Part shown: piece by piece, positions 20,978 to 35,957 of the stretch
How the letters are laid out: every line of letters starts with the position of its first letter
How positions within the stretch are numbered: the stretch's first letter is position 1
DNA from: Alkaliphilus sp. B6464
Lineage (GTDB): Bacteria; Bacillota; Clostridia; Peptostreptococcales; Natronincolaceae
Length of the DNA stretch: 64,000 bases
Direction of reading: 5' to 3'
Assembly: GCF_018141165.1 (NCBI RefSeq)
Contig: NZ_CP058557.1
Span: 3,348,001 to 3,412,000, forward strand
Position numbers and translations under genes: made by a program
Notes under the pieces: model-generated
Seen by the model: the letters and a program-made list of their open reading frames with translations, nothing else
Told to the model about the DNA's origin: nothing
Databases searched by the model: none

Positions 20978-21064
20978 ATGTATATTCTTTCTATACTATC
21001 ATTATATAACGTCTTTTTTATCTTGTCTTACTACATCTTTACTATGTTTGCTGATGGTATTTGA
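20978..21064 (+). CDS. Possible 28-aa hydrophobic peptide, antisense to late regulator
   Basis: On the plus strand an ATG preceded by GAAAGGAGAACACTT opens a 28-codon frame rich in Ile, Leu, Phe and Tyr (MYILSILSLYNVFFILSYY). It overlaps the 3' end of the regulator gene antisense. Size and hydrophobicity resemble type I toxins, but no plus-strand promoter is clear, so it may be chance. Confidence 0.2.
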   Translation: MYILSILSLYNVFFILSYYIFTMFADGI

Positions 21065-21454: not shown

Positions 21455-21466
21455 TTCATCGCCCCC

Positions 21467-21825: not shown

Positions 21826-21827
21826 AT

Positions 21828-23006: not shown

Positions 23007-23020
23007 CTATCCCACCCTTT

Positions 23021-23655: not shown

Positions 23656-23735
23656 TGTCCCCCTCCTTGCAAATTTCATAAATCTATATTAATTTCCGTA
23701 TAATTTGTTATAATTTCAATGAGTCATGTTGTAAT

Positions 23736-24554
23736 TTAAATTATAGATAGCTGTTCGAATTCATCCTCATTTTCTATTAGCATTTGTTCTGTTGCTTTTC
23801 TAAAAAAATCTTTAGATATTTCAAATCCATAGCTGCTTCTATTTAGCTCCTTGCAAGCCCTTAATGTGGTTCCACTACCTGCTACTGGATCTATTACAAC
23901 ATCACCTTCATCGGTAAAAATTTCAATAAGTTGTTTTAATACAGTTATTGGCTTCTGTGTTGGATGTATTTTGGGATAAGATTTAGAATTATCTCTTTTC
24001 CATTCAAACCAATTAAAAATCATTTTCCCTTTTTGTGTGTCTGTTCGGCCGTTATTGAACTTAGGGAGTTTATCTCTGTATAAAACAACTGCATGTTCCG
24101 TTGCCCCGACTATTTTCATATTCGCTTTTAATACTTGTGCTGAATAATTTTTAATAAAAAATAATGGATAACTTTTTTTAAAACCATGCTTTTTGCCATA
24201 TTCAATAACTGTAGGAATTTGTTCAAATGAACAAAATACAATCATAGCTGGAGCTTTCCCTTTTTCTTTCGGCTCTTTTTTTAATAATTTATTACAGAAA
24301 TGGAAGTATTCAGCTATATTAAAATTATGATCAGTATTGAAAAATGCTTTTCCTGCTTTCTTACTTTCTCCGTTTTTGTTGTTCCCACCTATATACCATT
24401 CAGGGTTTGAAGCGTAAGCATTAACTCCTAGGTTATACGGTATATCTGCTATTACTAGTTGTGCCTTTGGTATCCCATATCTTTTGTAATTTTGAAAATT
24501 ATCATTGTATAATTCTGTGTATAATTCTGTTTTTATTTTTTTATTATTTTTCAA
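23736..24554 (-). CDS. Orphan DNA N6-adenine/N4-cytosine methyltransferase
   Basis: The product belongs to the N6/N4 DNA methylase family. Motif IV reads ADIPYNLG (a DIPY variant of DPPY) near residue 40 and the SAM-binding motif I reads DPVAGSGTT near residue 235, so the order is of the beta class. The HPTQKP motif precedes motif I. No restriction gene is near, so it is an orphan, perhaps protecting phage DNA. I choose TTG 24554, eight bases after GGAGG, rather than GTG 24569 which overlaps that site. The leader contains hairpins (24563-24589, 24657-24710). Confidence 0.88.
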   Translation of the reverse strand: MKNNKKIKTELYTELYNDNFQNYKRYGIPKAQLVIADIPYNLGVNAYASNPEWYIGGNNKNGESKKAGKAFFNTDHNFNIAEYFHFCNKLLKKEPKEKGKAPAMIVFCSFEQIPTVIEYGKKHGFKKSYPLFFIKNYSAQVLKANMKIVGATEHAVVLYRDKLPKFNNGRTDTQKGKMIFNWFEWKRDNSKSYPKIHPTQKPITVLKQLIEIFTDEGDVVIDPVAGSGTTLRACKELNRSSYGFEISKDFFRKATEQMLIENEDEFEQLSII

Positions 24555-24562
24555 TTTATTTT

Positions 24563-24589
24563 CCTCCACGTCTGGAGGTGCAGCTGCAC
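24563..24589 (-). promoter_or_regulatory. Hairpin covering methyltransferase ribosome binding site
   Basis: On the minus strand CCTCCA-gacg-TGGAGG forms a perfect six-pair stem in which the GGAGG Shine-Dalgarno is one arm (24563-24578). Directly upstream lies the 12-base palindrome GTGCAGCTGCAC (24578-24589). Together they could block or gate translation of the methyltransferase. Confidence 0.6.
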
Positions 24590-24656
24590 TTTTATCTAGA
24601 ATTACTCCGTTTTTATATATTTAAATTTCATTTTGAATGCTATAATTTAATTGTGT

Positions 24657-24710
24657 GTGCTTGTGGAGAAGTCTCCTCGGTCGCCAAACTAAAGTGACTT
24701 CCCCTTGCAC
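24657..24710 (-). ncRNA. Long stem-loop in methyltransferase leader
   Basis: Arms 24696-24710 and 24657-24673 pair over about 13 positions (GTGC with GCAC, GGGGAAGTC with GACTTCTCC) and enclose a 22-base loop. There is no U-tract in the minus direction, so it is not a simple terminator. It may be a cis-regulatory RNA; class unknown. Confidence 0.45.
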
Positions 24711-24719
24711 ATGCCCTTA

Positions 24720-24857
24720 TTACTTTTTCTGTCTAAAATACTCGCAATAACTATCTAACTTAGTTTCTTTTTCTTCTATAATGCACATGTGTATAGTGCC
24801 TATTAGAGATTCTTGTTCATATCTCAATTTACAAAATTTACAGCTTCTATCTTGCAT
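24720..24857 (-). CDS. Small Cys-rich protein (45 aa)
   Basis: The frame starts MQDRSCKFCKLRYEQES after GGAGGTATACAA and includes two later cysteines (HMC, YCEYF), a CxxC...C...C pattern that could bind zinc. Function unknown. It lies between the dUTPase and methyltransferase genes. Confidence 0.65.
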   Translation of the reverse strand: MQDRSCKFCKLRYEQESLIGTIHMCIIEEKETKLDSYCEYFRQKK

Positions 24858-24868
24858 TTGTATACCTC

Positions 24869-25402
24869 CTAATATCCATTCTCCTGTCTATCGTGGTTGA
24901 TCTTATTTTTATCCATATAGGCTTGTACAATATTTTTTTCTGTAAATCCTAATAGTTGCCCTAATCCTAAAAATGTTTCAACTAGCTGTATGTATATAAT
25001 GCATTTAATAGTGTAGTCTAATTCGCTTTCTAACTCTGTTGCATATCTAAAAACTTTATTGAATTGTTTAGTTATGTCTGTACTATATATATTAGTTTTG
25101 TATTCGTCTTGCACTCTCCAATTCATACCATAATCAAGTCCTATGCTCAGTATAAAATGCAAACAATCAACGTATTCTTCTAAGAGTGGATTACCAGCCA
25201 ATTGATTTGGATGATTATTGTCCCTTGGTATCTGATCTTCACTCCAAAATTTAAATCCTCTCCACTCGTTAGCCAATTCTCCGAGTTCCACCTGTAAAGC
25301 TAATATCTTTTTATGTATCAAAATATGAACTGTAAGTCCTTTTTCTTCTATTATGCAAATATCTAACTTACTTTGTTTTTTAAACAGTTCTTTGAGTTTC
25401 AT
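24869..25402 (-). CDS. Dimeric dUTPase (dUTPase_2 family)
   Basis: The 177-residue all-alpha enzyme hydrolyses dUTP to dUMP and pyrophosphate. Metal-binding motifs are visible: ALQVELGELANEWRGFKFWS near residue 32-51 (ExxE) and LLEEYVDCLHFILS near residue 73 (ExxD), with DYGMNW after it. It overlaps the DUF1599 gene by one base and lies among nucleotide and replication genes. Confidence 0.9.
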   Translation of the reverse strand: MKLKELFKKQSKLDICIIEEKGLTVHILIHKKILALQVELGELANEWRGFKFWSEDQIPRDNNHPNQLAGNPLLEEYVDCLHFILSIGLDYGMNWRVQDEYKTNIYSTDITKQFNKVFRYATELESELDYTIKCIIYIQLVETFLGLGQLLGFTEKNIVQAYMDKNKINHDRQENGY

Positions 25403-25668
25403 TATTCCGCCTCTCTTTCTATAAGTTCTAAAATCGCATAATTCGCAAGGTCTAAAAGTGTATCGTTTATGCTCTCATCAACTTGTGGTTCGTAGTCTAT
25501 TTCATACAACCTTTTTAATCGTTCTAACTTGTCCATTAGTCGAATTAAAATAGCCTTAGGATACTCTTGTCTAACCTTTGAAAAACTATCTCCGTAATCG
25601 GCATTTTTAGCCTTATAAGTATCATGTAATGTATTGCATATTTCTTTATGAATTTCTACTTTGTTCAT
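25402..25668 (-). CDS. DUF1599 / nucleotide modification associated domain protein
   Basis: The 88-residue product carries the KNADYGDSFSKV motif and LIRLMDKLERLKRLY helix of the DUF1599 (Nmad1) family, an all-alpha NTP pyrophosphohydrolase-like group often found in phages. With the adjoining dUTPase it probably acts on the nucleotide pool. It overlaps neighbours on both sides. Confidence 0.85.
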   Translation of the reverse strand: MNKVEIHKEICNTLHDTYKAKNADYGDSFSKVRQEYPKAILIRLMDKLERLKRLYEIDYEPQVDESINDTLLDLANYAILELIEREAE

Positions 25669-25859
25669 CCTTTCAACACCCTCCTTGCGTCTCTTAGTCC
25701 TTCAAATCCCATTCGCTTTAGTTCTTTCAATATAATCGGGTGACTGCACTTGAATTCTATCTCTAACTTTGTCATGCTTGCATTTTCTTCTATTAATTTC
25801 AACATTAAGTCTTGATCTTGTTTTTCCCAAATGTATTCACCCTTTTTCCCTCTTATCAT
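25665..25859 (-). CDS. Small helix-turn-helix-like protein (64 aa)
   Basis: The segment MLKLIEENASMTKLEIEFKC, followed by HPIILKELKRMGFEGLRDAR, looks like a compact helix-turn-helix. I choose ATG 25859 because the GTG at 25868 is part of the AGGTGG ribosome binding site. It may regulate early genes; no family name can be given. Confidence 0.7.
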   Translation of the reverse strand: MIRGKKGEYIWEKQDQDLMLKLIEENASMTKLEIEFKCSHPIILKELKRMGFEGLRDARRVLKG

Positions 25860-25861
25860 TT

Positions 25862-26020
25862 TTACCACCTATCCTTATAATTTTTGTGTTTCCAACCACT
25901 TTCAATCCTGCTCATTCGTTGTACTGCTTGATATGTGTACTGTCTTAATTCCCTTTCCTTCTGCCTATTCTCCTTAATCTTTTGTCTATCTTCCTCAGTT
26001 ATATATCTTGCAGCAAACAT
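25862..26020 (-). CDS. Small basic protein (52 aa)
   Basis: A strong GGAGG eight bases upstream precedes the ATG. The product (MFAARYITEEDRQKIKENRQ and onward) is a basic helix with several Arg and Gln. No domain recognised; a DNA-associated role is possible. Its stop lies against the ribosome binding site of the helix-turn-helix gene. Confidence 0.65.
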   Translation of the reverse strand: MFAARYITEEDRQKIKENRQKERELRQYTYQAVQRMSRIESGWKHKNYKDRW

Positions 26021-26062
26021 ATGCTTGTCCTCCTTACGCATAATTCTTGCAATGCGACATTA

Positions 26063-26212
26063 TTATTTTTCTATTTCATTTAAATCTACACCATAAATTT
26101 CCTTAACCCAACTTTTAATAGTTTCTGAATAACAACCTAATAATCCATAGTTAAAACCATCACAACTCAAATTGTTTCTTTCTAATATTGTAAAAATGTT
26201 TTCCTTATTCAT
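26063..26212 (-). CDS. Small hypothetical protein (49 aa)
   Basis: The frame begins MNKENIFTILERNNLSCDGF after GGAAGGTGC and has two cysteines and a C-terminal helix (IKSWVKEIYGVDL). No family recognised. A promoter-like TTGAAA...TATTTT lies about 30 bases upstream. Confidence 0.6.
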   Translation of the reverse strand: MNKENIFTILERNNLSCDGFNYGLLGCYSETIKSWVKEIYGVDLNEIEK

Positions 26213-26268
26213 TTTAAATGCACCTTCCTTTTAAAATATAATGAATCGTACAATTTTCAAAATATGTA

Positions 26269-26478
26269 CTAAAATATGTTACCAGATGAAGCAATAACTT
26301 TTGCTGTGCCTTCAACTGTACCCATATATGTGAGTTCCATATTTCCAACACTAACTTTATAAAGATTCATTCCGATATCCGTTACAGGTGATATAACTGC
26401 CCCAGCTTCGATTGCCTTCACGTAAAATCTTTTTACTGATCTTTCAATAAATAGCTTAGTTTCATCGGACAAATTCAT
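26269..26478 (-). CDS. Small hypothetical phage protein (69 aa)
   Basis: The product has a helical first half (DETKLFIERSVKRFYVKAIE) and a beta second half (MELTYMGTVEGTAKVIAS). I use ATG 26478; the GTG at 26487 lies inside the AAGGAG region. Function unknown. Confidence 0.7.
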   Translation of the reverse strand: MNLSDETKLFIERSVKRFYVKAIEAGAVISPVTDIGMNLYKVSVGNMELTYMGTVEGTAKVIASSGNIF

Positions 26479-26506
26479 TAATTTCACTCCTTCGCATAAT
26501 TTTCAT

Positions 26507-26656
26507 TTAACGTAAAGATAAGTTTTTATAATATTCTTCTCTTTTGTCTTGTTCTTCTTTTACAATTATCTTCCATGTTTCCCTTATTTCTTTCTCTGTG
26601 GTTATGCCTTTTGTTATTAAAATTCTTTCTAAAACTTTTAAATCTAAATTAGCCAT
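26507..26656 (-). CDS. Small helical protein (49 aa)
   Basis: An ATG after GGAGGTAATTAAAA opens this frame (MANLDLKVLERILITKGITT onward), rich in Glu and Lys with no cysteine. The KGITTEKEI phrase could be a helix-turn. Function unknown; it is in the early operon between SSB and the 69-residue gene. Confidence 0.65.
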   Translation of the reverse strand: MANLDLKVLERILITKGITTEKEIRETWKIIVKEEQDKREEYYKNLSLR

Positions 26657-26710
26657 TTTTAATTACCTCCATATTTTTTAATTTAAGTCGTATAATCTTC
26701 ATATTGTGTC

Positions 26711-26815
26711 TTACTTCTTATCAGTCCGCTCTAAGTAACCATTGTTAATTCCATAAGCAACTCCACACATGCAAGCCATAAATCCTGCTGCAAATCCTAT
26801 TAATTCACTTAACAT
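26711..26815 (-). CDS. Small single-span membrane peptide (34 aa)
   Basis: A GGGGAGAAAAT site precedes an ATG for a 34-residue peptide with a hydrophobic core (LIGFAAGFMACMCGVAYGI) and a charged end. It resembles small phage membrane peptides of unknown role. It abuts the SSB gene. Confidence 0.55.
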   Translation of the reverse strand: MLSELIGFAAGFMACMCGVAYGINNGYLERTDKK

Positions 26816-26832
26816 ATTTTCTCCCCACTTCA

Positions 26833-27225
26833 TCAGAATGGTATATCGCTGTCCGAGTCTATAGCTGTAAAATCATCATAATTAGAATCACCTGTAGAAT
26901 TATTCTCCTGCTTCTTATCCCCCCACTCTAAAAACTCCACATTGTCCGCAATCACTTCCGTAACATATCGTTTTTGTCCGTCTTGAGCTTCATAGGACCT
27001 ACTTTGAAGTCTACCTTCAAGTCCTACCAATCTACCTTTTGCAAGATAGTTAGCACAGTTTTCGGCAGTTTTACCCCATACAACTACGTTGAAAAAATCT
27101 GCTTCCTTTTTTTTTGAAAAAGGTCTATTTACTGCTATACTAAATGTTGCTACTGCTTTGCCACTTGCTATATATTTAAACTCTACGTCTCTAGCAAGAC
27201 GACCTATTAAAATTACTCTATTCAT
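26833..27225 (-). CDS. ssb: Single-stranded DNA-binding protein
   Basis: This 130-residue OB-fold protein covers single-stranded DNA during replication and recombination. It opens MNRVILIGRLARDVEFKY, carries FNVVVWGKTAENCANYL, and ends in the protein-interaction tip SDSDIPF. I choose ATG 27225, correctly spaced after GGAGG; an ATG two codons upstream also exists. It belongs to the replication cluster. Confidence 0.95.
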   Translation of the reverse strand: MNRVILIGRLARDVEFKYIASGKAVATFSIAVNRPFSKKKEADFFNVVVWGKTAENCANYLAKGRLVGLEGRLQSRSYEAQDGQKRYVTEVIADNVEFLEWGDKKQENNSTGDSNYDDFTAIDSDSDIPF

Positions 27226-27382
27226 CTTCATCCTCCACTTCTTCTAAGTAATTTTCGTATGCTTGATCGCAACGTGTACCTTCACATAGATTCCAAGGTC
27301 CCGTGTTTACCTTCTGGGTTCCAAATTCCGTCCACGGACAATAATCGCATAATTCTTCTTCTAATTCCTCTCTTGATTTCAT
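27218..27382 (-). CDS. Small acidic Cys-rich protein (54 aa)
   Basis: The frame (MKSREELEEELCDYCPWTEF onward) contains CDYC, a central tryptophan-rich loop and two further cysteines (LCEGTRC), a zinc-ribbon-like pattern, and an acidic tail that includes the ribosome binding site of ssb. Function unknown. Confidence 0.65.
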   Translation of the reverse strand: MKSREELEEELCDYCPWTEFGTQKVNTGPWNLCEGTRCDQAYENYLEEVEDEDE

Positions 27383-27398
27383 ATCTACTCAACCCCCA

Positions 27399-27488
27399 CT
27401 AAGATTTATTTGTATGTACTAAACTAGACCACATCAACCTAGACTTAATTGGTAACTTTAGAAACTCAAAATTTAATATTGGTCTCAT
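27399..27488 (-). CDS. Tiny protein (29 aa), coupled to upstream gene
   Basis: ATG overlaps the stop of the 43-residue gene (ATGA) and has GGGGGTGAAACA upstream. The product begins MRPILNFEFLKLPIKSRLMW. Translation is plausible, but the size makes the call uncertain. Confidence 0.4.
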   Translation of the reverse strand: MRPILNFEFLKLPIKSRLMWSSLVHTNKS

Positions 27489-27616
27489 TGTTTCACCCCC
27501 TCATATATTTCCATCGCTTTTTCTATAGCTTCTTTAGCACTACAATTTTGATCAAAATATATTTTTACTGCTTCTTCCGCCACTTTGATGATTTTCTTCT
27601 CCTCTTGCTTGTCCAT
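27485..27616 (-). CDS. Small helical protein (43 aa)
   Basis: The frame (MDKQEEKKIIKVAEEAVKIY onward) is a charged amphipathic helix pair. It overlaps the 3' end of the gene at 27552-27878 by 65 bases in another frame, more than usual, and is coupled to the next tiny gene. Function unknown. Confidence 0.5.
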   Translation of the reverse strand: MDKQEEKKIIKVAEEAVKIYFDQNCSAKEAIEKAMEIYEGVKQ

Positions 27617-27878
27617 GCCCAAATATTCCGCCCTCCCTTGACTCTATTTTGTTCTGTCTGCCTAGATGCATTATTAGTAGTGCTACTTCATCAACTGCAT
27701 TTCTAATGCCATCATACTTTCTTAACTTTCGAGCCATTTCTTCAATGCTCCATCCACAAGTCCACATGAATATTGCTTGTTGAATTTGTTCCGTAGTCCA
27801 AGTTAAATCTAAGTCGTCTAAAATTATGACGTAGTCTTTTAGATTGCGCTTAATTTTATCCGTTGTGGTAGTTGCCAT
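27552..27878 (-). CDS. Hypothetical early phage protein, helix-turn-helix-like
   Basis: The 108-residue product contains FMWTCGWSIEEMARKLRKY, a helix-turn-helix-like stretch, and DEVALLIMHLGRQNKIE. The last 25 residues are Gly, Gln and Ser rich and overlap another gene. Similar proteins sit after phage replication initiators; a role as helicase-loader-associated or regulatory protein is a guess. Its ATG overlaps the stop of the O-like gene. Confidence 0.65.
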   Translation of the reverse strand: MATTTTDKIKRNLKDYVIILDDLDLTWTTEQIQQAIFMWTCGWSIEEMARKLRKYDGIRNAVDEVALLIMHLGRQNKIESREGGIFGHGQARGEENHQSGGRSSKNIF

Positions 27879-28771
27879 CAGTTCCCCTCCCTGCGTTTCT
27901 TCTGATTATTTAATATAAGTTGCTCTAATTCATCTGCCGAATACTTATCGCCCCTACTTTTAGCAAGGTGGAATTTAGTCTTAGGCTTTGGTGGTTGATT
28001 CCGTTGTTGTGGTACTACTTGTTGACTTGGACCTTTACTTTTAAAGTCACTATAGTTAATCCACTTCTGCCCTTCATCTAGCCAATCATAGTAGCCATTA
28101 TTTTGAGTTAAGAATTTATCCAGTGTCATTTTGTACTTACAGAATTGATAATTTGGATCTCTAAAAGCTTCTCCGTATCTTTTAATAGCTTCTAGGATAG
28201 TATCTTGTTTATCTCTCTTTAATGCTTTATCTATAGCCTGTTTCATTTTAGAAGTAAGTTCTTTATGAGTAATAATATTTTGATTGTTATAAGTTTCAAA
28301 AACTCTTTCTTTAATATTTTCTTTATATATTTCTTTAATCTTTCTTTCTTGGTAGAAGGATTCTTCTACTGGGGTGTTGAACAACTCTTCATCTGGGGTA
28401 TTGAATAACTCTTCATCTGTTGAACAATTCTTCACCTGTTGAACAATAGTTCCACACCCTACCCAAGTTTGATACTTTTTATTGATCATCAATTTTCGAC
28501 TTTCTATATCGGTGTATTTCTTTGAAACCAACACTACATTAGATTCAATTAACTTATTCAATTCGCTAGATACATATCTTCGACTTACTCCAGTAGCTTT
28601 ACTTATGAAAGATAGTGACAACTCATGTTCTTTACGTCCAAATCCGTAAGTATAGCGAATGATACAAAGTAAAATTTTAAGTTGGGTAGCATTAAACTTA
28701 GTACTATATATCACTTCCAATAATTCGTTTGCTATCCTAGTGTACCCATTTTCTAATTGAGGATTAGCCAT
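27878..28771 (-). CDS. Phage replication initiation protein (O-like, winged helix)
   Basis: The 297-residue product has an N-terminal Phage_rep_O winged-helix domain (about residues 1-105: NGYTRIANELLEVIYSTKF, LKILLCIIRYTYGFGRKEHE, FISKATGVSRRYVSSELNKL). A linker (residues 106-135) repeats DEELFNTP-like units, and a C-terminal part follows (SKMKQAIDKALKRDKQ). The repeated linker is encoded by iteron-like DNA at 28376-28456, as in lambda O, where the origin lies inside the gene. It would bind those sites and recruit host helicase. Confidence 0.88.
   Translation of the reverse strand: MANPQLENGYTRIANELLEVIYSTKFNATQLKILLCIIRYTYGFGRKEHELSLSFISKATGVSRRYVSSELNKLIESNVVLVSKKYTDIESRKLMINKKYQTWVGCGTIVQQVKNCSTDEELFNTPDEELFNTPVEESFYQERKIKEIYKENIKERVFETYNNQNIITHKELTSKMKQAIDKALKRDKQDTILEAIKRYGEAFRDPNYQFCKYKMTLDKFLTQNNGYYDWLDEGQKWINYSDFKSKGPSQQVVPQQRNQPPKPKTKFHLAKSRGDKYSADELEQLILNNQKKRREGN
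28376..28456. repeat. Iteron-like direct repeats, candidate prophage replication origin
   Basis: Three near-identical 19-base repeats with plus-strand consensus GTTGAACAAYTCTTCAYCT lie at 28376-28394, 28400-28418 and 28419-28437, with a partial fourth (GTTGAACAAT) from 28438. Spacing is 24, 19 and 19 bases. They are inside the O-like gene. Confidence 0.7.
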
Positions 28772-28812
28772 TTAATCACCTTCTTTGTCCCCCTTTCGGG
28801 TAGGGCTATCGG

Positions 28813-29409
28813 CTAGCCCTGTTTTACATTCTTCTTCTGACAGTCCATGCACAAACCTTTTCCGTAGTATTGTTTGCTGTATGTTTCAACCGCAGGCTTT
28901 ATTTCTACACCACAATCCACACAACTTCCACTATTGGCTTCTTTATTTTCTTTTTTACTAGAACTACTTTGTTTAGGTTTATCATCCGTTTTAGCAGGCT
29001 TGTCCTTTGTTTTTCCATGTGTATTCGTACTATCCGAATCCTTAGTATCATCTATGCAGAATAGTCCGTTTAAAGCGTATTTACGAGCATATGAAGATGT
29101 ACTCCCTGTCACTTGACTAAGGTCCATACCTTTTTTAGTTTCGTCTTCTCTAGCATAAGAAGTTGAAGTAATCTCCTGCCCTTCTTCTGCGTCAATCAAT
29201 GTCGCTGTAGCTTTTACATAGTATCTGTCACCTATTTGGGTTATTTCATCATTGATTACTAGAGTTGCTTTATGTTCTTCTAATAAAGGTTTCAAGCCTT
29301 CTAAAATATCTTCACAACTTCTATAATGGTATTTTCCGAACGAATTATATTGTCCCTTTGGTGCTTTAAGCTCTGTTTGTATCTTCAATAATTTTTCAAA
29401 TATACTCAC
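28813..29409 (-). CDS. ERF-family single-strand annealing protein with C-terminal zinc ribbon
   Basis: The 198-residue recombinase has the ERF core (residues 1-120: KGQYNSFGKYHYRSCEDILE, DLSQVTGSTSSYARKYALNGLF split here as two blocks), then a Lys/Ser-rich linker and an end with CVDCGVEIK and CMDCQKK, a four-cysteine ribbon. It anneals DNA strands for phage recombination, working with Gam, SSB and RusA. The GTG start overlaps the upstream stop (TAGTG) after AAAGGAGG. Confidence 0.9.
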   Translation of the reverse strand: MSIFEKLLKIQTELKAPKGQYNSFGKYHYRSCEDILEGLKPLLEEHKATLVINDEITQIGDRYYVKATATLIDAEEGQEITSTSYAREDETKKGMDLSQVTGSTSSYARKYALNGLFCIDDTKDSDSTNTHGKTKDKPAKTDDKPKQSSSSKKENKEANSGSCVDCGVEIKPAVETYSKQYYGKGLCMDCQKKNVKQG

Positions 29410-29561
29410 TATGCTTGTCCTCCTTTCAGGAATTCCAGTTCATCTTCCACAGGCTTAAAGTGTACTAATTCAAGGTAATTTCTAAGTGGCATAATATTAA
29501 TTTGTCTTAGATCTTCTTCACTTTCAAATACTTCTAATGTTAGAGTATTAATGTATTTCAT
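29409..29561 (-). CDS. Small hypothetical protein (50 aa)
   Basis: The frame begins MKYINTLTLEVFESEEDLRQ and overlaps both Gam (TAATG) and ERF genes, so it is translationally coupled. The NIMPLRNYLELVHFKPVED part is typical of a short beta-helix protein; function unknown. Confidence 0.65.
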   Translation of the reverse strand: MKYINTLTLEVFESEEDLRQINIMPLRNYLELVHFKPVEDELEFLKGGQA

Positions 29562-30106
29562 TAGTCCATCACAACCTCAAATTTATCTTCTCTTTCAATT
29601 GCCTTTACATGTTCTATAATTTCCCCTGTATGCTTGTCCACTACATTCCCAGCAACTACTGTTATATCTTTCTTTAATGTGCTCCAATCAAAACTCTCTT
29701 TAACTTTGATTAAATCTGCTCTTGTCGACCCTTTGGCCCACTTTATTAAGTTTTCTTCGTCTCTAACATACTCTAGTGGTTGCTTTCTAAATCGTACTGT
29801 ACCATGTGGTAATTTAATAGATTTAGTCTCAGGGTCCTTCTCACGTTCCTTAACCATGTACTCTAGTAGTAACCCCTCGAATCTAGCTATATCATACTTA
29901 CTTTTCTTGTTTTCGCTTTCTTGCCACGCTTTGATACGTTCAATTTCAGCCTCTGCTAATTGGTCAGTTTCTTCTATTTGCTCTTTTAATACCTTAATTT
30001 TTCTTAACGCCCATTCTGCCGATTGTTTGTTCTCAATCTTGTAGCCTTCTCTTTCTACAGTTTCAACCTCTTGTATTTCAGCTAATTGTAATCTATTCAT
30101 CCTCAT
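29561..30106 (-). CDS. gam: Host-nuclease inhibitor Gam-like protein
   Basis: The 181-residue product matches the Mu Gam family: a long N-terminal coiled coil (KIKVLKEQIEETDQLAEAE), then GLLLEYMVKEREKDPETKSI, LPHGTVRFRKQP, and a C-terminal DITVVAGNVVDKHTGEII. Gam binds DNA ends and protects them from host exonuclease, fitting the adjacent ERF recombinase. Two close ATGs (30106 and 30100) are possible. Confidence 0.88.
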   Translation of the reverse strand: MRMNRLQLAEIQEVETVEREGYKIENKQSAEWALRKIKVLKEQIEETDQLAEAEIERIKAWQESENKKSKYDIARFEGLLLEYMVKEREKDPETKSIKLPHGTVRFRKQPLEYVRDEENLIKWAKGSTRADLIKVKESFDWSTLKKDITVVAGNVVDKHTGEIIEHVKAIEREDKFEVVMD

Positions 30107-30239
30107 GTTCCCCTTTCAAAATTCGTATTTGTCTTTTCAAGTAACTATTTTCCTGTTCTAGCAGGTTTATATAATTAAACAGTCGTGATACTCCGTTATT
30201 AACATCTGCTTTTATCTCTTGTAACTGCCGATCAGTCAT
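30093..30239 (-). CDS. Small coiled-coil protein (48 aa)
   Basis: An ATG after GGGGGGTGTCCT opens a frame (MTDRQLQEIKADVNNGVSRL onward) with leucine-heptad character (LLEQENSYLKRQIRIL). It overlaps the Gam start. Function unknown. Confidence 0.65.
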   Translation of the reverse strand: MTDRQLQEIKADVNNGVSRLFNYINLLEQENSYLKRQIRILKGEHEDE

Positions 30240-30250
30240 AGGACACCCCC

Positions 30251-30619
30251 CTAATCTATGTACCATTTGCCATAAAGGATTTCTCCTATGCTTATGCCAG
30301 CTCCATTTGTGCCTAAAATTTCATGAAATTCGTGTTTAGGTGCTTTATACAAATAAAGTCTTTGATCGACTTCGCAATAAACACTAGACTCTTTTTCTAA
30401 AGCCTTTATTGCTTCTGTAAATGTAACTGGCTGTTTTACTTCTTGCCAGTCTCTATCAATAAATATAGCTCGAACAAATTCGTTATTATCTTGTGTGTAC
30501 CTAAAGGATATAACTGTGTTATTTGATTGAGCGGTAATTTCATTTGGCGTATCTTTATCACTTATAAATGTTTTATTTGGTTTTTCCTCTAATATCGCAA
30601 TAACTTCACTTAATTTCAT
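30251..30619 (-). CDS. Hypothetical early phage protein (122 aa)
   Basis: The product starts MKLSEVIAILEEKPNKTFIS and has a beta-rich middle and PVTFTEAIKALEKES, a phrase seen in many small phage early proteins whose job is unknown. AGGGAGGTTGTAAAC precedes the ATG. Confidence 0.75.
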   Translation of the reverse strand: MKLSEVIAILEEKPNKTFISDKDTPNEITAQSNNTVISFRYTQDNNEFVRAIFIDRDWQEVKQPVTFTEAIKALEKESSVYCEVDQRLYLYKAPKHEFHEILGTNGAGISIGEILYGKWYID

Positions 30620-30633
30620 GTTTACAACCTCCC

Positions 30634-30894
30634 TTATATCTCTGCGAACTCTGATTCGAGTCGCTTAATCTCTGCATTGGCTAAATCTATAAAATTATTA
30701 ATTAAATGTGCTCCCGCATAAGTTGTAAAATTATAGTTTTCTTCTTCAAGAAAGTCGAGCTTAAATCCATCCGTATAAACACCACGTGTTGTTTTTACTA
30801 GTTTTATTCTCTTTTTCCATCTATCAATTTCATTTAAAATACGATTTCCATCGTTAACTCTTACCTGCATATATTCCAAAGTTTTAATATCCAT
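30634..30894 (-). CDS. Hypothetical early phage protein (86 aa)
   Basis: A helical N-terminus (VNDGNRILNEIDRWKKRIKL) and FTTYAGAHLINNFIDLANAE near the end; no family recognised. It shares the ribosome binding region sequence GGAGGTTGTAAACAATG-like with the gene downstream, hinting at a small duplication of leader sequence. Confidence 0.75.
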   Translation of the reverse strand: MDIKTLEYMQVRVNDGNRILNEIDRWKKRIKLVKTTRGVYTDGFKLDFLEEENYNFTTYAGAHLINNFIDLANAEIKRLESEFAEI

Positions 30895-30950
30895 TGTTTA
30901 CAACCTCCCAATTTGTGTTATAATACTGTTAACTTGTTTTTCTAAGCCCC

Positions 30951-31055
30951 TTATTCGTTGGCAGACGATAGGGCTTTTTCTATTTCTGCTAATCTTTTTA
31001 GCTGTTTTCTAAGTTCTTTTACTGCGCCTGTGTAGCGAAATAACATTACTTTCAT
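30951..31055 (-). CDS. Tiny basic protein (34 aa)
   Basis: GAGGTGTAACT precedes the ATG of a 34-residue basic helical peptide (VKELRKQLKRLAEIEKAL). The stop overlaps a weak stem AAGCCC/GGGGCTT. Translation is plausible; function unknown. Confidence 0.45.
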   Translation of the reverse strand: MKVMLFRYTGAVKELRKQLKRLAEIEKALSSANE

Positions 31056-31057
31056 AG

Positions 31058-31222
31058 TTACACCTCACTTATTTCTATAGATTCTTCCAAACATTCATCA
31101 CATATTGGTGGATTTATAGGTTGTCCCATGCATCCACAATCCCGACCACTACAACAACCTTCTGGCTCATACTTTGTAAATTCTTCTACTGACTTTTCTT
31201 TTAAACAGTAATAACATTTCAT
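31058..31222 (-). CDS. Small protein with eight cysteines (54 aa)
   Basis: The ATG follows an excellent AAAGGAGGTGCGAAG. Cysteines at positions 3, 6, 23, 24, 29, 31, 41 and 44 form paired CxxC units (MKCYYC and ICDEC) typical of a double zinc ribbon. It directly precedes the 34-residue gene. Function unknown; possibly an inhibitor or adaptor of host proteins. Confidence 0.7.
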   Translation of the reverse strand: MKCYYCLKEKSVEEFTKYEPEGCCSGRDCGCMGQPINPPICDECLEESIEISEV

Positions 31223-31237
31223 CTTCGCACCTCCTTT

Positions 31238-31996
31238 CTAAGCTCCGTATTTAATCGCCATTTCTTTTACTACTGCTATATAAATTTCTTTAAGTCTTTT
31301 ATCCTCTGCTATTACATCGACTTGCGATACTGCTTTAACTTTAGATTCGCTTGTACCTTCTCTACGCATACGATCTTGTTTATTTACAATTCGTGTTTTC
31401 AAATTAGCACCTGCTCTTTGCTCTACTAGGTTATAGACTTCTTCTCTAACACCTCTGTAGGCTTCGCCTGTGCCACCTCTTTGCTTTGCAATCTTATTAA
31501 TAAGGGTATTGCATTCTTTTCTCCATGAATCGTGATCTAGCACCATTGCGTCCCTTATTCCCTGTACTTCTTGCTTAGTTTCTGTTATGGCCATTTCTAT
31601 TTCTCTTTGCTTTAGCTCCATATTGATTAATAACTGTAGCTGTGGACTTAACTCCTGCATTGGTGCTTTTAATTGCTTGTCCATTTCGTGAAAACGATTA
31701 ATGTATGTAGCTGTAAATATTGCTCCTTTTTGTCCTGTAAGTTTGTGTGCTATGAACTCACAACCTTTTTTAGTTATCTTGTAATTAGGTCTTTCTTCTC
31801 CTTTACTATCAACATAAGTACTACTAATAAAGAAACTTTCAACCTCCCCAACTTTGGGGTCGTTAGCATTTTTAAGGTATTGACTATAATTTTCTATATC
31901 CCTCAATAAATGATCGTGTCTTTTCCCTACCATTTCTGTTACTTCTCTACTGTCTAAAGTTGATTCTTGAATTGATACGTTTACTAAACTTTTCAT
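31238..31996 (-). CDS. Phage antirepressor/regulator (Rha N-terminal, ORF6C C-terminal)
   Basis: The 252-residue product has the Rha domain (residues 8-105: LDSREVTEMVGKRHDHLLRD, PNYKITKKGCEFIAHKLTG, THE FATYINRFHEMD-type end) and a C-terminal ORF6C domain (DSWRKECNTLINKIAKQRGG, VYNLVEQRAGANLKTRI). Such proteins act as antirepressors or lysogeny regulators. It is the second or third gene of the rightmost early transcript starting at the Cro-like gene, fitting that role. Confidence 0.88.
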   Translation of the reverse strand: MKSLVNVSIQESTLDSREVTEMVGKRHDHLLRDIENYSQYLKNANDPKVGEVESFFISSTYVDSKGEERPNYKITKKGCEFIAHKLTGQKGAIFTATYINRFHEMDKQLKAPMQELSPQLQLLINMELKQREIEMAITETKQEVQGIRDAMVLDHDSWRKECNTLINKIAKQRGGTGEAYRGVREEVYNLVEQRAGANLKTRIVNKQDRMRREGTSESKVKAVSQVDVIAEDKRLKEIYIAVVKEMAIKYGA

Positions 31997-32026
31997 TTAC
32001 TTGTCCTCCTTTGTTCTATTTTTAGG

Positions 32027-32215
32027 CTAATTAGCCCGATTTTCTTCCTTAGCATATTTCCTCATTAAACCCTCTACAGCTATATCTTCAATTCTTTTAA
32101 TGATTGCATCTATTTCAGCTTGCGTTTTATTCTTATAACATGCATTGTTAATTTTAATTTTTGTATTCCCTAACATATACTCCTCAACTATTTCACCTTC
32201 TAATGGTTCTTTCAT
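32027..32215 (-). CDS. Small hypothetical protein (62 aa)
   Basis: The frame begins MKEPLEGEIVEEYMLGNTKI, followed by a charged helix (AEIDAIIKRIEDIAVEGLMR). Small proteins of this kind commonly sit between cro and antirepressor genes. Good GGGGGGCTACTT site; function unknown. Confidence 0.7.
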   Translation of the reverse strand: MKEPLEGEIVEEYMLGNTKIKINNACYKNKTQAEIDAIIKRIEDIAVEGLMRKYAKEENRAN

Positions 32216-32275
32216 AAGTAGCCCCCCTTTTGCTTAAATGTATGTTGCTAAAAGAATGTCCTATTACTATGTAAC

Positions 32276-32506
32276 TTACATTTCAATTTGTTTTAATATC
32301 TTATTTACATCAAGTTCTAAACATTTAGCTAAAAGAAGTAATTTTTCTGAACTTGGTGCATATCTTCCATTTTCTAAATCAGATAGATAATTTCTAGATA
32401 TATTAATTTTTTCTGCTACTTCTAATTGAGTCATTGATTTACTTTTTCTAGCTTTCTTAATGTTTGCTCCAATGATTTTTTTGTTGTCGGTTTGCATTGT
32501 ATTCAC
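32276..32506 (-). CDS. Cro-like XRE-family regulator
   Basis: The 76-residue protein is a single helix-turn-helix domain (IKKARKSKSMTQLEVAEKIN, ISRNYLSDLENGRYAPSSE). It is divergent from the repressor at 32725 and should act as the lytic switch. The start is either GTG 32506, very near the AAAGGAGG, or ATG 32497 with a longer spacer. Its promoter (32524-32552) contains an operator-like sequence. Confidence 0.9.
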   Translation of the reverse strand: MNTMQTDNKKIIGANIKKARKSKSMTQLEVAEKINISRNYLSDLENGRYAPSSEKLLLLAKCLELDVNKILKQIEM

Positions 32507-32523
32507 GACCTCCTTTCAATAAC

Positions 32524-32552
32524 ATTGTATTAAATACACGTCATTTTGTAAA
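32524..32552 (-). promoter_or_regulatory. Promoter of Cro-like gene with operator in the spacer
   Basis: Minus strand TTTACA (32547-32552), 17-base spacer, TACAAT (32524-32529). The spacer and -35 include CAAAATGACGTG (32537-32548), repeated at 32611-32622. Confidence 0.75.
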
Positions 32553-32610
32553 ACAGTAAAAACGAGCATTAATTCAAATTACTAAGGATTATCAATATAA
32601 TTCGTTAATT

Positions 32611-32622
32611 CACGTCATTTTG
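32611..32622. promoter_or_regulatory. Second operator-like repeat in the switch region
   Basis: Plus-strand CACGTCATTTTG at 32611-32622 exactly repeats 32537-32548, 74 bases away. A related half (TACGTGAATT) is at 32631 onward and CGACATTTTATCG overlaps the repressor promoter. They are likely binding sites for the XRE regulators. Confidence 0.6.
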
Positions 32623-32656
32623 CTTTAATATACGTGAATTTCCGTCTAAAAAGTAA

Positions 32657-32685
32657 TTGTATAACCGACATTTTATCGTTATAAT
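32657..32685 (+). promoter_or_regulatory. Repressor promoter
   Basis: TTGTAT (32657-32662), 17-base spacer, consensus TATAAT (32680-32685). Transcription would begin near 32692, so the upstream in-frame ATG at 32686 cannot be the start of the repressor. Confidence 0.75.
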
Positions 32686-32724
32686 ATGATTATCAAAATA
32701 ATTAAACAGTTCGGAGGCAATAAA

Positions 32725-33087
32725 ATGAATATAGGATTAAGAGTTAAAGAATTAAGAAAACAACTTGGATTAACACAAGCTGAGTTTGCTAAAAAAGCAA
32801 ATATATCAAGAACCTATCTATCAGATGTAGAAAATAATAGGTACAACCCAAGCATTGATACATTACAAAATATAGCTAACCATTTAGAAGTGCCTTTAAG
32901 TGATTTTTTTGATACAAGTACGGATAATGAACGAAAAACAATCGATGATATAAATAAAATAGTTGAAAAAAACAAAATAGAAACTATAGCTGCACATCTT
33001 GATGCGGAAGAATTTACTGATGCAGATTTAGAAGATATTGAAGAATTCATTAAATATGTTGCATCTAGAAAGAAAAAAAGAGAGTAA
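32725..33087 (+). CDS. Lysogeny repressor, XRE family (ImmR-like)
   Basis: The 120-residue repressor has an N-terminal helix-turn-helix (VKELRKQLGLTQAEFAKKAN, ISRTYLSDVENNRYNPS) and an acidic C-terminal helical tail (EEFTDADLEDIEEFIKYVAS). The start at 32725 follows GGAGGCAATAAA and lies after the mapped promoter. Its helix-turn-helix is very similar to that of the Cro-like protein, so both may share operators. The next gene is an ImmA-like protein, a pair known in ICEBs1 and many prophages. Confidence 0.9.
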   Translation: MNIGLRVKELRKQLGLTQAEFAKKANISRTYLSDVENNRYNPSIDTLQNIANHLEVPLSDFFDTSTDNERKTIDDINKIVEKNKIETIAAHLDAEEFTDADLEDIEEFIKYVASRKKKRE

Positions 33088-33115
33088 TGCCTTGTGAATC
33101 AAAAGGGGGACAACT

Positions 33116-33577
33116 ATGCGTACATATGAAGAAATGATAATAAAAGCTGATGAAGAAGGTATTGAAGTTATTGAAATGGATTTTAAAGGAAATGCAAAAG
33201 GCTACTGCTGCGATAATGTAATTAGTATTTCTAATAAGTTAACTACAAATAAAGAAAAAAAATGTACCTTGATTGAAGAAATCAGCCACCTTAAAAATAA
33301 CATTGGGAATATACTAGATCAGTCTGATATTAGAAATAGAAAACAAGAAAGACTAGCTAGAACATGGGGATATGAGAAATTAGTCGGAATTATAGATTTA
33401 GTTAGTGCTTATAACAATGGTGTACGAAATAGATACGAACTATCTGAATATCTAGATGTAACAGAAGAATTTATCGATAGTGCATTAAAATATTATAAAG
33501 AAAAATACGGTCTTTTTTATGAAATAGATAACTATATAGTCTATTTTGAACCATTAGTTATAATTAAAAAATTTTAA
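33116..33577 (+). CDS. ImmA/IrrE-like metallopeptidase
   Basis: The 153-residue product resembles ImmA-type peptidases that cleave the lysogeny repressor to trigger induction. The metal motif reads LIEEISHLKNN, an EExxH variant of HExxH seen in phage members, and RNRKQERLARTWGYEKLV holds the second conserved segment. It ends with a winged, beta C-terminal part. It follows the repressor by 28 bases with a GGGGGA site and is transcribed with it. Confidence 0.82.
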   Translation: MRTYEEMIIKADEEGIEVIEMDFKGNAKGYCCDNVISISNKLTTNKEKKCTLIEEISHLKNNIGNILDQSDIRNRKQERLARTWGYEKLVGIIDLVSAYNNGVRNRYELSEYLDVTEEFIDSALKYYKEKYGLFYEIDNYIVYFEPLVIIKKF

Positions 33578-33625
33578 TTTTTTTTAATTATTTACTCGAA
33601 CATACGTTTGAAAGAAGGTTATTAT

Positions 33626-35215
33626 ATGACAAAGGGTTATTGTATATATTTGAGAAAATCAAGAGCAGACGTTGAAGCAGAGTCTAGGGGTGAAGGTGAA
33701 ACTTTAGCTCGACATGAGAATATTTTATTAGAGCTGGCCAAAAAACAAAGTCTACATATAACACAAATTTACAAAGAAGTTGTTTCTGGAGAAACCATTT
33801 CCTCTCGCCCTGTAATGCAACATTTACTTTCAGAAGTGGAACAAGATTTATGGAAAGGCGTATTAGTTGTCGAAGTAGAGCGTCTTGCTAGAGGAGACAC
33901 TATAGATCAAGGTATAGTTGCACAGGCATTTAAGTATTCTAATACAAAAATAATAACTCCTATGAAAGTCTATGACCCTAATAACGAATTCGATGAGGAG
34001 TATTTTGAATTCGGACTGTTTATGTCTAGGAGAGAATATAAAACCATCAATAGGCGTTTACAACGTGGTCGACTTGAAAGTGTTAAGGAAGGCAAATATG
34101 TTGGCAACACTCCTCCATACGGCTATGTAAGAAAGAAACTTGAGAATCAAAAAGGTTACACTTTGGAGATTATTCCAGACGAAGCTAATGTTGTTAAACT
34201 AATATTTGAATTGTACACTAAAGGCGAATTACAAGAAGATGGGACACATAACAGATTAGGTGTATCTCTTATAGTTAGAAAGCTGAACGATCTTAAAATA
34301 CCAACTATTAAAGGTGGCGATTGGACTCCTGCAACTATTCGAGGAATACTTAGAAATCCAGTATACATGGGAAAGATTCGTTGGAATGCACGTCCAGAAG
34401 TTAAAAAGATGGTTGATGGAAAAATGATAAAAGAAAGACCTCATGCTAAGGAAGAAGATATAGTTTTAGTTGACGGACTACATGAATCTATTATAGATGA
34501 AGAATTATTCGAATTAACACAAAAGTTTTTAAAAGAAAACCCAATGTTTCCTGTACCAAATAAACATGTTGTAAAAAATCCATTAGCCGGGATCATAACC
34601 TGTGGTATGTGTAATAGAAAAATGACTAGACGACCATATGGTGATAAATATCCAGATGCTTTAATCTGTGCTTTTACTTCTTGTAAAAATGTAAGTTCTC
34701 AACTCTCCTTAGTAGAAGAAAAATTGTTACATGCTTTGGAAAGTTGGCTTACAAATTATAAATTAAATTTAAAATCAATAAAAAATAATAAGTCAGAAAA
34801 GAATCTTGAATCAGATATTATAAATAAAAACATAGATAAATTAAATAGCGAAATTGAAACTTTACAAAAACAGTTGGATAATTTACACGACTTGCTAGAG
34901 CAAGGAATCTATACAACCAAAACATTTCTTGAAAGATCTAAAAAGATTAATGATAAAATTGAGATTGCCAAGAATGACAGAAACGCATTAGTCGATAGTT
35001 TGAATAAGAGTACTATTACAGAAAAAGAAGCAAGCATAATTATACCTAAGATAGAAAATATAATAAGGGTATATCATGAATTAGATGCAAAAGCTAAAAA
35101 TATATTGTTAAAGGAAGTTTTAAATAAAGTTGTTTATATTAAAAATAAAAGTGGACGATGGCACGCTAAACCAGATGATTTCGAGCTTGAACTTTTCATA
35201 GAACTACCGAAGTAG
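33626..35215 (+). CDS. Large serine integrase
   Basis: The 529-residue recombinase integrates and excises the prophage. The resolvase domain starts YCIYLRKSRADVE (catalytic Ser is in RKSRAD-type motif), with EVVSGETISSRPVMQHL and VVEVERLARGDTIDQG; the recombinase domain spans about 160-270 (YGYVRKKLENQKGY, GGDWTPATIRGILRNPVY); a zinc ribbon with four Cys follows (ITCGMCNRKM, ICAFTSCKN); and a coiled coil near residues 395-450. I start at ATG 33626 since the TTG at 33608 lies before the AAAGAAGG site. It is the last prophage gene, next to the interrupted cotJC. Confidence 0.95.
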   Translation: MTKGYCIYLRKSRADVEAESRGEGETLARHENILLELAKKQSLHITQIYKEVVSGETISSRPVMQHLLSEVEQDLWKGVLVVEVERLARGDTIDQGIVAQAFKYSNTKIITPMKVYDPNNEFDEEYFEFGLFMSRREYKTINRRLQRGRLESVKEGKYVGNTPPYGYVRKKLENQKGYTLEIIPDEANVVKLIFELYTKGELQEDGTHNRLGVSLIVRKLNDLKIPTIKGGDWTPATIRGILRNPVYMGKIRWNARPEVKKMVDGKMIKERPHAKEEDIVLVDGLHESIIDEELFELTQKFLKENPMFPVPNKHVVKNPLAGIITCGMCNRKMTRRPYGDKYPDALICAFTSCKNVSSQLSLVEEKLLHALESWLTNYKLNLKSIKNNKSEKNLESDIINKNIDKLNSEIETLQKQLDNLHDLLEQGIYTTKTFLERSKKINDKIEIAKNDRNALVDSLNKSTITEKEASIIIPKIENIIRVYHELDAKAKNILLKEVLNKVVYIKNKSGRWHAKPDDFELELFIELPK

Positions 35216-35227
35216 TTCTATTTTTTA
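35198..35227 (+). terminator. Intrinsic terminator overlapping the integrase stop codon
   Basis: ATAGAACTAC pairs perfectly with GTAGTTCTAT around CGAA, followed by TTTTT. The integrase stop TAG (35213-35215) lies inside the stem. It would stop integrase transcripts from running antisense into cotJC. Confidence 0.85.
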
Positions 35228-35244
35228 TTATGTATAACATATAT

Positions 35245-35263
35245 GTACTTATTCTTCCGTACC
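35245..35263. other. Prophage right attachment junction (attR/attL) inside cotJC
   Basis: Homology to CotJC ends at Gly-Thr-Glu-Glu (35252-35263) and an in-frame TAA follows at 35249. The crossover of the serine integrase must lie in or beside this stretch. The phage-side arm TGTATAACATATATGTAC (35231-35248) is AT-rich and partly symmetrical, as in attP half sites. Confidence 0.75.
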
Positions 35264-35446
35264 AATATCTGTTAGAAGACCTTTCGCTTCATTAGTAGGT
35301 ATTGTATATCTTTGATTTAAATATCTTATAGCTGCAGAAAGTTCTCCATCTGGGCCTCCGTATTGAGTTAATAAATATTTAGCCATTCTTAAGTCTTTGC
35401 AATGAATTTTAACTGGATACTCTAGTTTTTTTTCATAAATCCACAT
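35249..35446 (-). pseudogene. cotJC: cotJC 5' fragment interrupted by prophage (spore coat Mn-catalase-like)
   Basis: The 65 residues begin MWIYEKKLEYPVKI and include QYGGPDGELSAAIRYLNQRY and GLLTDIGTEE, matching the N-terminus of CotJC, a spore inner-coat protein related to manganese catalase of about 190-220 residues. The match stops in the conserved EExxH metal motif, where the prophage begins; the phage supplies the stop. The 3' part should be on the far side of the prophage, left of base 1, on the same strand. Excision would restore the gene. Confidence 0.9.
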
Positions 35447-35475: not shown

Positions 35476-35724
35476 TTATTCTTCCCATGGCCATGGACTA
35501 TCGAGCCATCTCCATGAACAATGATTAGGAGAGAACCCAAAATTTAAAAGTGGTCCATAGAGCATTTCATATTGCTGCTTTAACATTAATAACTGGTTGG
35601 AGTAGTTGTTATACTCCATTAATGCTCTTTGATCATAGAGATGTGTATCTAAGTACAGTTGCCACTCTATTGCAGCAAATTCTACCTCCTGAATTTGTCT
35701 TAATAATTTATGTCTATCGCCCAT
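35476..35724 (-). CDS. cotJB: Spore coat protein CotJB
   Basis: The 82-residue product matches CotJB: RQIQEVEFAAIEWQLYLDTH and an aromatic C-terminus (SWRWLDSPWPWEE). It is needed for assembly of the CotJ proteins into the spore coat. ATG overlaps the cotJA stop; cotJC follows 29 bases on. The operon order cotJA-cotJB-cotJC is the same as in Bacillus subtilis, where it is made in the mother cell under sigma E. Confidence 0.93.
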   Translation of the reverse strand: MGDRHKLLRQIQEVEFAAIEWQLYLDTHLYDQRALMEYNNYSNQLLMLKQQYEMLYGPLLNFGFSPNHCSWRWLDSPWPWEE

Positions 35725-35957
35725 TATTTTTCCTCCTTCCAGGGGTCTTCATGCGGATTATACACATTAGATAACTCCGGAAATATAGTCCCCTTCATCA
35801 ATGCTTCTCTTATAGGAAATGTAGTCGTAAAGGATTGATAGGGTACATAAGCATGAGCGTACAATGGGTTAATAGGCATAAATGGGACTGGATAAATCTG
35901 ACATGGTCCATAGTTTCCATGTTTGTATAGATATTGATTACATCCGTTGTGACACAC
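35724..35957 (-). CDS. cotJA: Spore coat protein CotJA
   Basis: The 77-residue product is proline- and tyrosine-rich with the conserved LYAHAYVPYQSFTTTFPIRE and ALMKGTIFPEL segments of CotJA. The GTG start follows GGGAGGTAATTAAAA. First gene of the cotJ operon. A sigma E promoter was sought in 35958-36060 but not found with confidence. Confidence 0.9.
   Translation of the reverse strand: MCHNGCNQYLYKHGNYGPCQIYPVPFMPINPLYAHAYVPYQSFTTTFPIREALMKGTIFPELSNVYNPHEDPWKEEK

Follow-up and report, generated by a model that had tools for sequence, protein, structure and literature searches.

The sporulation gene cotJC of Alkaliphilus sp. B6464 is interrupted by a prophage within codon Glu65, its 3' half lying on the same strand to the left of the window (the whole 64-kb stretch of DNA analysed here), and joining the two halves restores the reading frame. 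It is probable that this prophage is a sporulation-controlled intervening element of cotJC, in which a small 62-aa protein would act as recombination directionality factor (RDF) and excision would take place in the mother cell. Intervening elements of sporulation genes are known, according to those parts of the literature that are accessible, from six genes (sigK, spsM, spoVFB, spoVR, gerE and yabG). A single case joins a known kind; what is new is the integrase clade, the recurrent codon and the multiply split genes.

Table 1. The interrupted cotJC locus and its prophage. Coordinates are window positions, except where prefixed by G000:C1 (G000 being the window's genome).
Feature	Coordinates	Strand	Remarks
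Prophage/intervening element, part in window	1..35254		further 4,274 bp left of base 1
Baseplate protein	1027..2073	-	
Tape measure protein	4928..7021	-	
Tail sheath (contractile tail)	8111..9415	-	
Major head protein	11210..12229	-	
Minor head protein	13266..14831	-	
Portal protein	14821..16260	-	
Terminase large subunit	16398..17672	-	
Phage regulatory protein Rha	31238..31996	-	PF09669
Candidate RDF, 62 aa	32027..32215	-	family co-occurrence, weak fold match
Promoter-like block TAGGACA-N12-CATA before RDF candidate	32241..32263	-	also before sigK-element small gene
Cro-like HTH protein, first gene of leftward early operon	32276..32506	-	PF01381
CI-like HTH repressor	32686..33087	+	PF01381
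ImmA/IrrE-like protein	33116..33577	+	PF06114
Large serine integrase	33626..35215	+	PF00239, PF07508 above cut-off; ORF listed from TTG at 33608
cotJC 5' part, 65 codons ending GTEE	35249..35446	-	PF05067, E 3.5e-21
Attachment core GGTACGGAAGAAT	35251..35263	-	shared with left end, one mismatch; inferred crossover GA 35253-35254
cotJB	35476..35724	-	PF12652
cotJA	35724..35957	-	PF11007
cotJC C part	G000:C1:3343367-3343735	-	PF05067; 39.5 kb left, beyond window

A profile search of the 3.86-Mb genome (2 contigs) with PF05067 (E <= 0.001) returned two pieces, of which the N part lies in the window and the C part beyond it, both above the family cut-off, and no second copy of cotJC. The TAA that closes the 65-codon frame is element DNA. 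Joined at the inferred crossover, the halves give an in-frame CotJC of 190 aa, 181 of which are identical to the intact CotJC of a sister species (genome G001), and over the 29 bases around the crossover the joined gene and the intact G001 gene are identical throughout. Chance is excluded by the shared frame of the two halves and by the full agreement of the joined gene with that of G001 over those 29 bases; a chance stop or frameshift in cotJC is ruled out by the presence of the second half with a matching att core. The initial annotation had described a cotJA-cotJB-cotJC operon intact up to residue 65 of CotJC, with homology ending at Thr-Glu-Glu, and both points are borne out, all three genes matching their own Pfam families and the break falling within the codon for Glu65. 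It had given its finding the span 35245-35446; the split is real, but 35245 lies a few bases inside the element, the inferred crossover being at 35253-35254. The 3' fragment of cotJC past the left prophage end, which had been set beforehand as a test of the proposal, is present, on the right strand and in frame, and the comparison with a relative lacking the prophage is provided by G001, in which cotJC is intact.

The core common to both junctions, GGTAC(G/A)GAAGAAT, is 13 bp long with one mismatch; the left junction reads ...GATGGTACAGAAGAA/TTAGCTCACGTAG and the right junction ...GATATTGGTACGGAAGAA/TAAGTACATATATG. Among about 40 C-side ends of interrupted genes the last GA(A/G) alone is common to all, its third base following the host, whilst on the N side host-like sequence continues through GAAGAA, and the attP arms form an inverted repeat (ATAACAT..GTAC) whose centre is this GA, in the codon for Glu65. 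Since only GA(A/G) is common to the C-side ends and the attP repeats are centred there, the crossover would fall on this GA (window 35253-35254, G000:C1:3343725-3343726), and the whole element between the inferred crossovers (G000:C1:3343727-3383254) measures 39,528 bp. A palindromic crossover permitting insertion in both orientations was rejected, the GA dinucleotide not being palindromic. Elements differ in whether the integrase lies beside the N or the C part; as GA is not palindromic, on this reading the integrase would have switched sides of attP between lineages. In a sister genome (G002) the break in cotJC falls in the same codon; a related integrase adjoins it and the other half has different neighbours, so that attB has been re-used.

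Judged from its genes, the element resembles an entire temperate phage, one whose tail is contractile. The complete-looking prophage that had been described to the left of the break is indeed there, with terminase, portal, head, sheath, tape measure and baseplate genes (Table 1) accompanied by endolysin and holin genes. The leftward early operon runs in the order cro-like gene, 62-aa protein, Rha, and the cI/immA-like pair precedes the integrase. The neighbour of cotJC is, as had been recognised, a large serine integrase that adjoins the junction; it has Resolvase and Recombinase domains together with a zinc ribbon just below the Pfam cut-off (E 9.2e-5, 23.2 bits against 25.3), and it matches the PHROG integrase at E 1.9e-102.

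The 62-aa protein is regarded as a candidate RDF on the grounds of co-occurrence with the integrase and a weak fold match. A family HMM, seeded with nine proteins and iterated over the integrase loci (cut-off E 1e-4), found relatives in 56 of 83 integrase loci, which had also served for its training, and in 36 of 69 viral-contig loci, which lay outside the training and some of which may stem from the same strains as the integrase loci; there were none in 56 unrelated loci from the same bacterial family, in 15 intact PF05067 loci or in the reversed integrase and reversed viral sets. The AlphaFold model of the protein (pLDDT 91) is a beta hairpin followed by a long helix, and Foldseek against 350,542 PDB chains gave six matches, the top two being weak ones (E 2.6-3.8) to the 56-57-residue chains of 9dxd, the SPbeta integrase-RDF complex, which are taken to be YotN/SprB. 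VIA-align scored 9dxd chain D at Z 2.5, below two unrelated helix matches, and an hhalign profile comparison detected no sequence homology to SprB (probability 0.4%). No Pfam match gives the protein a name, and the best PHROGs and NCBIfam hits, to it and to three relatives, were no stronger than E 0.03. Matches to complex I 24-kDa subunits in a PDB sequence search (24 positions, E 0.0008) were dismissed as irrelevant.

The region upstream of the RDF genes is distinctive. CATA ranks first of the 256 4-mers between -42 and -14, occurring in 32 of 48 non-redundant RDF upstreams versus 47 of 374 other genes from the same loci (Fisher 3e-15, with relatives treated as independent), and TATAAT, scored in a slightly wider region (-45..-12), is found in 0 of 48 RDF upstreams versus 36 of 374 control genes. 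These rows derive from 57 RDFs, of which 56 were used (L061, in which no start codon was found, was dropped) and 48 remained once near-copies had been collapsed; the start codons chosen for L049, L054, L072 and L090 are doubtful. A second set of 24 RDFs, kept as independent from 37 found in viral contigs, also had CATA as its most frequent 4-mer (13 of 24, against a mean of 4.6 and a maximum of 11 in 2000 shuffles) and TATAAT in 0 of 24. Upstreams of cotJA, meant as a positive control, contained CATA in 10 of 31 and were not a clean control, the cotJ -10 in this family resembling, by eye, AATAGTATA; integrase upstreams contained it in 11 of 61. The CATA of the RDF upstreams would on this evidence be a sporulation-sigma-like -10. 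The same four bases occur in -10 boxes of the sigma-G type.

The block before the RDF candidate in the window reads AATAGGACA-N12-CATACATTT, and exact TAGGACA-N12-CATA occurs at 2 sites in the genome, no more than chance (the reversed pattern occurs at 3). The second site, at C1:2522892, precedes a 67-aa ORF divergent from another serine recombinase in a skin-type element of about 5.5 kb that splits sigK (L247 7913-14214, equivalent to G000:C1:2519912-2526213), the two parts of which best match SigK (TIGR02846) over model positions 2-113 and 108-226 of 227. The small proteins of the sigK and cotJC elements are unlike in sequence, as judged by eye, but have the same promoter block. Exact block hits number 47 in 20 genomes of the family (reversed pattern 64) and 10 in the three genomes of the genus (reversed control also 10); the frequency of the block is uninformative and only its location is telling. 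A homologue of the sigK-element small gene was found in 4 of the 20 family genomes, with the exact block in G000, G001 and G002 and, in the case of G009, no exact block on its contig; within the genus all 5 such genes have it, counting the cotJC elements of G000 and G002. TAGGACA precedes 10 of the 57 RDFs, exact CATA is absent in the cotJC elements of G004 and G015, and the whole block is absent in that of G003. TAGGACA is nearer to the -10 than is usual for a -35, and GGACA was rejected as a canonical -35, N12 to CATA being too short a spacing. The ATA preceding GGACA is a better fit to a sigma-E -35, and TAGGACAAAT fits the SpoIIID consensus, WWRRACARNY; since few RDF upstreams fit this consensus, a role for SpoIIID is retained as a possibility. 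The best reason for supposing that the cotJC phage would leave in the mother cell is that the promoter block is common to its small gene and that of the sigK element.

PF05067 is present in 17 of the 20 genomes of the bacterial family, and in 5 of these 17 (G000, G002, G003, G004 and G015) cotJC is in two parts with the same cut. The insert of G003 (about 3.3 kb) carries an integrase, a 58-aa protein and a nucleotidyltransferase/HEPN-like pair, and that of G004 (7.2 kb) an integrase, a 59-aa protein, two-component genes and a flavoprotein, all names being given by eye; those of G002 and G015 are spread over contigs. Median pN/pS of the C-half was 0.141 for 10 interrupted pairs, 0.137 for 66 intact pairs and 0.139 for 60 mixed pairs, and 0.034 for G003 versus G004, both of them interrupted. 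Stop codons numbered 0 in 46 full-length C parts, a set that includes intact genes and duplicate loci and was preselected for full length. By these measures the interrupted C-halves look no more decayed than intact genes, whilst in any single case a low pN/pS could reflect recent insertion. In another genome of the same family, G008 (C39, C57 and C71), a single PF05067 match is full-length and several are partial, the latter perhaps the remains of earlier insertions.

Relatives of the integrase were confirmed in genome contigs in 156 cases, of which 80, at 45-62% identity, were kept. A cotJC part lies within the fetched stretch for 54 of the 80 and is absent in 26, a count obtained with queries cut at residue 65 and thus silent on the position of the break. 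With an uncut CotJC query the N parts mostly end at residues 65-70 (exceptions being L044 at 96, L047 at 80, L067 at 75 and L099 at 61) and the C parts start at 61-65 (at 55 in L063). The 13 elements with both ends in one fetched stretch are 3.3-9.7 kb in size and all have the integrase; the small RDF-candidate protein is found in 12 (all but L058), and no phage structural genes were seen in any of the 13 by eye. Cargo is varied among the small cotJC elements (L112 4040-4846; L099, L103, L106, L111, L113), their translations, read by eye, including a nucleotidyltransferase/HEPN-like pair, ATPase-containing modules, a two-component system and possible sortase/surface proteins. Seven of the 26 relatives without a cotJC part lie in or beside pieces of asparagine synthetase (L053, L060, L071, L073, L078, L081, L087) and six by pieces of LysM/GH18 (SleL/YaaH-like) genes (L066, L089, L101, L104, L107, L108), Pfam agreeing for the 5 of these 13 loci to which it was applied; the other 13 comprise two attP-like ends (L033, L040), L098, a near-copy of L100 on a contig that ends too early, and unexplained ends. 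In B. subtilis, asnO and sleL/yaaH belong to the genes that sigma-E controls. A tree of the integrases (84 rows, 58 of them cotJC) places the asparagine-synthetase and GH18 rows in two separate supported groups, each target taking 2 changes, and the window's integrase in a supported 7-row set, all of which are cotJC. Near the integrase 3' end of L033 and L040 a cotJC-like core is flanked on both sides by non-cotJC DNA, possibly the attP of unintegrated or tandem elements. Viral contigs yielded 69 integrase relatives, with a cotJC part in 15, many of the stretches stopping close behind the integrase, and phage records 396, all at less than 60% identity.

Glu65 is not the only point at which cotJC is cut. 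Among 20 genomes chosen from those behind the integrase loci, and with weak PF05067 pieces included, 7 had the gene in two pieces, 10 in three and 3 in four, those with three or four including gut Clostridia. The pieces retrieved for 10 of these genomes (loci including L128-L147) locate three breaks besides that at E65: one at GGP, immediately ahead of E35, one at HGV and one at AAE (E136). In the complete genome of Blautia parvula (L128, L129, L130) the gene forms a collinear set of four same-strand pieces that runs across the origin (residues 1-33, 30-62, 63-161 and 146-198, separated by about 6.8, 101 and 23 kb), besides which there is an intact paralogue; at the E65 point the N-side piece is without the usual GAAGA core, and this junction may have decayed. 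In draft genomes many pieces are on different contigs, so that order and strand there are unproven. One recombinase scanned at each of the HGV and AAE points was of DUF4368 type, and two at the pre-E35 point seemed, by eye, to be of another type. Glu65 corresponds to a metal-ligand glutamate of manganese catalase, and three of the four breaks fall at or beside codons of such glutamates; the earlier suggestion that the catalytic motif explains the choice of attB gains support from this. It is an evenly balanced question whether elements that excise during development generally use cotJC as a landing site in Clostridia, with the E65 clade as a portable cassette. If so, there would be at least four insertion points and at least three kinds of serine recombinase, the Blautia parvula gene, whose pieces span some 131 kb, would be rebuilt in the mother cell by three separate site-specific excisions, making it the DNA-level equivalent of a gene with several introns, and the cassette of integrase, RDF and sporulation promoter would have reached asparagine synthetase and SleL/YaaH-like genes as well.

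For the prophage in the window the following sequence of events is proposed. The integrase would have inserted it by attP x attB recombination in cotJC, with exchange on the GA of Glu65, and during growth cotJC would stay split, the prophage being retained since the RDF would not be made. A sporulation sigma, most likely sigma-E with or without SpoIIID, would transcribe the RDF gene from the promoter-like block in the mother cell, whereupon integrase and RDF would recombine attL x attR, a circle would leave and cotJABC would be restored in frame, as in the sequence join, to give a coat-associated Mn-catalase-like protein. The forespore chromosome would retain the prophage, so that phage and host gene would both pass through the spore. 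As the RDF candidate follows the cro-like gene, in second place in the early lytic operon, it could also serve excision on lytic induction.

This last feature would also suit an ordinary temperate phage, whose attB happened by chance to lie in a dispensable coat gene, which excised only lytically and whose sporulating lysogens were without CotJC. The structural, lysis and lysogeny modules are all there, and no apparent defect is reported for B. subtilis lacking CotJC in the accessible text of PMC12122855. However, in this genome the promoter block is shared only with the sigK-element gene, CATA-type -10 sequences run throughout the RDF family, the small related elements retain the integrase and in 12 of 13 cases the RDF candidate, and several kinds of recombinase converge on cotJC, all of which make an ordinary phage unlikely. 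The same dispensability in B. subtilis might suggest a dead insertion, the host having lost its need for the gene and the prophage persisting as a fixed remnant, but the integrase, the RDF candidate and both gene halves have open frames, both att sites are present, the genome has no further copy of cotJC and pN/pS of the C-half is low, and this explanation is barely credible.

A developmental element might also differ from skin in timing or compartment, the RDF being made in the forespore or in response to a general stationary-phase signal. The sigma factor is assigned here by motif and, as noted, that motif is shared with sigma-G, but the cotJ genes are mother-cell genes in B. subtilis, the sigK-element small gene bears the same block and, by analogy with the system in the accessible part of PMC5025042, the sigK element must leave the mother cell chromosome before sigma-K acts; there is only a slim chance that this variant is correct.

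Should the reading of the prophage as a sporulation-controlled element of cotJC be right, a coat gene has become the repeated target of one integrase clade throughout Clostridia, many of which live in the gut, and this clade comes with a recognisable family of small RDFs and a shared promoter signal. It would become testable why phages pick genes of the mother cell (being inherited via the spore without harm to the host gene), by what route an active phage is pared down to an excisable insert of only 3-10 kb, and how one terminal cell clears a single gene of two or three elements. A survey of serine recombinases names RDF discovery as a future direction (PMC10083194, as far as accessible), and the clade supplies many matched sets of integrase, att site and candidate RDF.

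No account of a cotJC-intervening element was found in the accessible passages of the literature, subscription papers and preprints excepted (passages including PMC7476324 and PMC11222575), the nearest mention, in a source accessible in part, being that C. difficile phi027 adjoins a CotJC-like gene. Elements of cyanobacterial heterocyst genes (nifD, fdxN, hupL), whose excision in the differentiated cell restores the genes (PMC4191935, PMC4874684, in their accessible parts), belong to another lineage and developmental programme. The sporulation-gene elements vfbin (spoVFB), vrin (spoVR), gin (gerE) and yin (yabG), described in the accessible parts of PMC4191935, PMC5595907 and PMC10747680, occupy other genes, whereas here one integrase clade targets one cotJC codon across many Clostridia. 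SPbeta in spsM (SprA/YokA with SprB/YotN) is likewise an apparently complete phage in a spore-envelope gene; the cotJC integrase is 30% identical to YokA, its closest solved structure, and the small chain of 9dxd is the best, albeit weak, fold match of the RDF candidate, but gene, host class and att core differ and the RDFs are without sequence similarity. The layout claimed at the outset, that of sporulation intervening elements, holds in the same-strand, in-frame halves and the serine integrase at the junction. As in skin, which splits sigK in B. subtilis and C. difficile, a mother-cell gene is divided by a prophage-like element with a serine recombinase at its end; the target of skin is a regulator, whereas here it is a coat/Mn-catalase gene and the element a complete-looking phage. 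In the C. difficile system (CD1231/CD1234) the 72-aa RDF CD1234, under sigma-E and SpoIIID, restricts excision, according to the accessible text of PMC5025042. The likeness to skin is closer than was first claimed, the same genome having a skin-type sigK element with the same promoter block. This genome contains eight PF07508 serine recombinase matches, including those of the cotJC and sigK elements.
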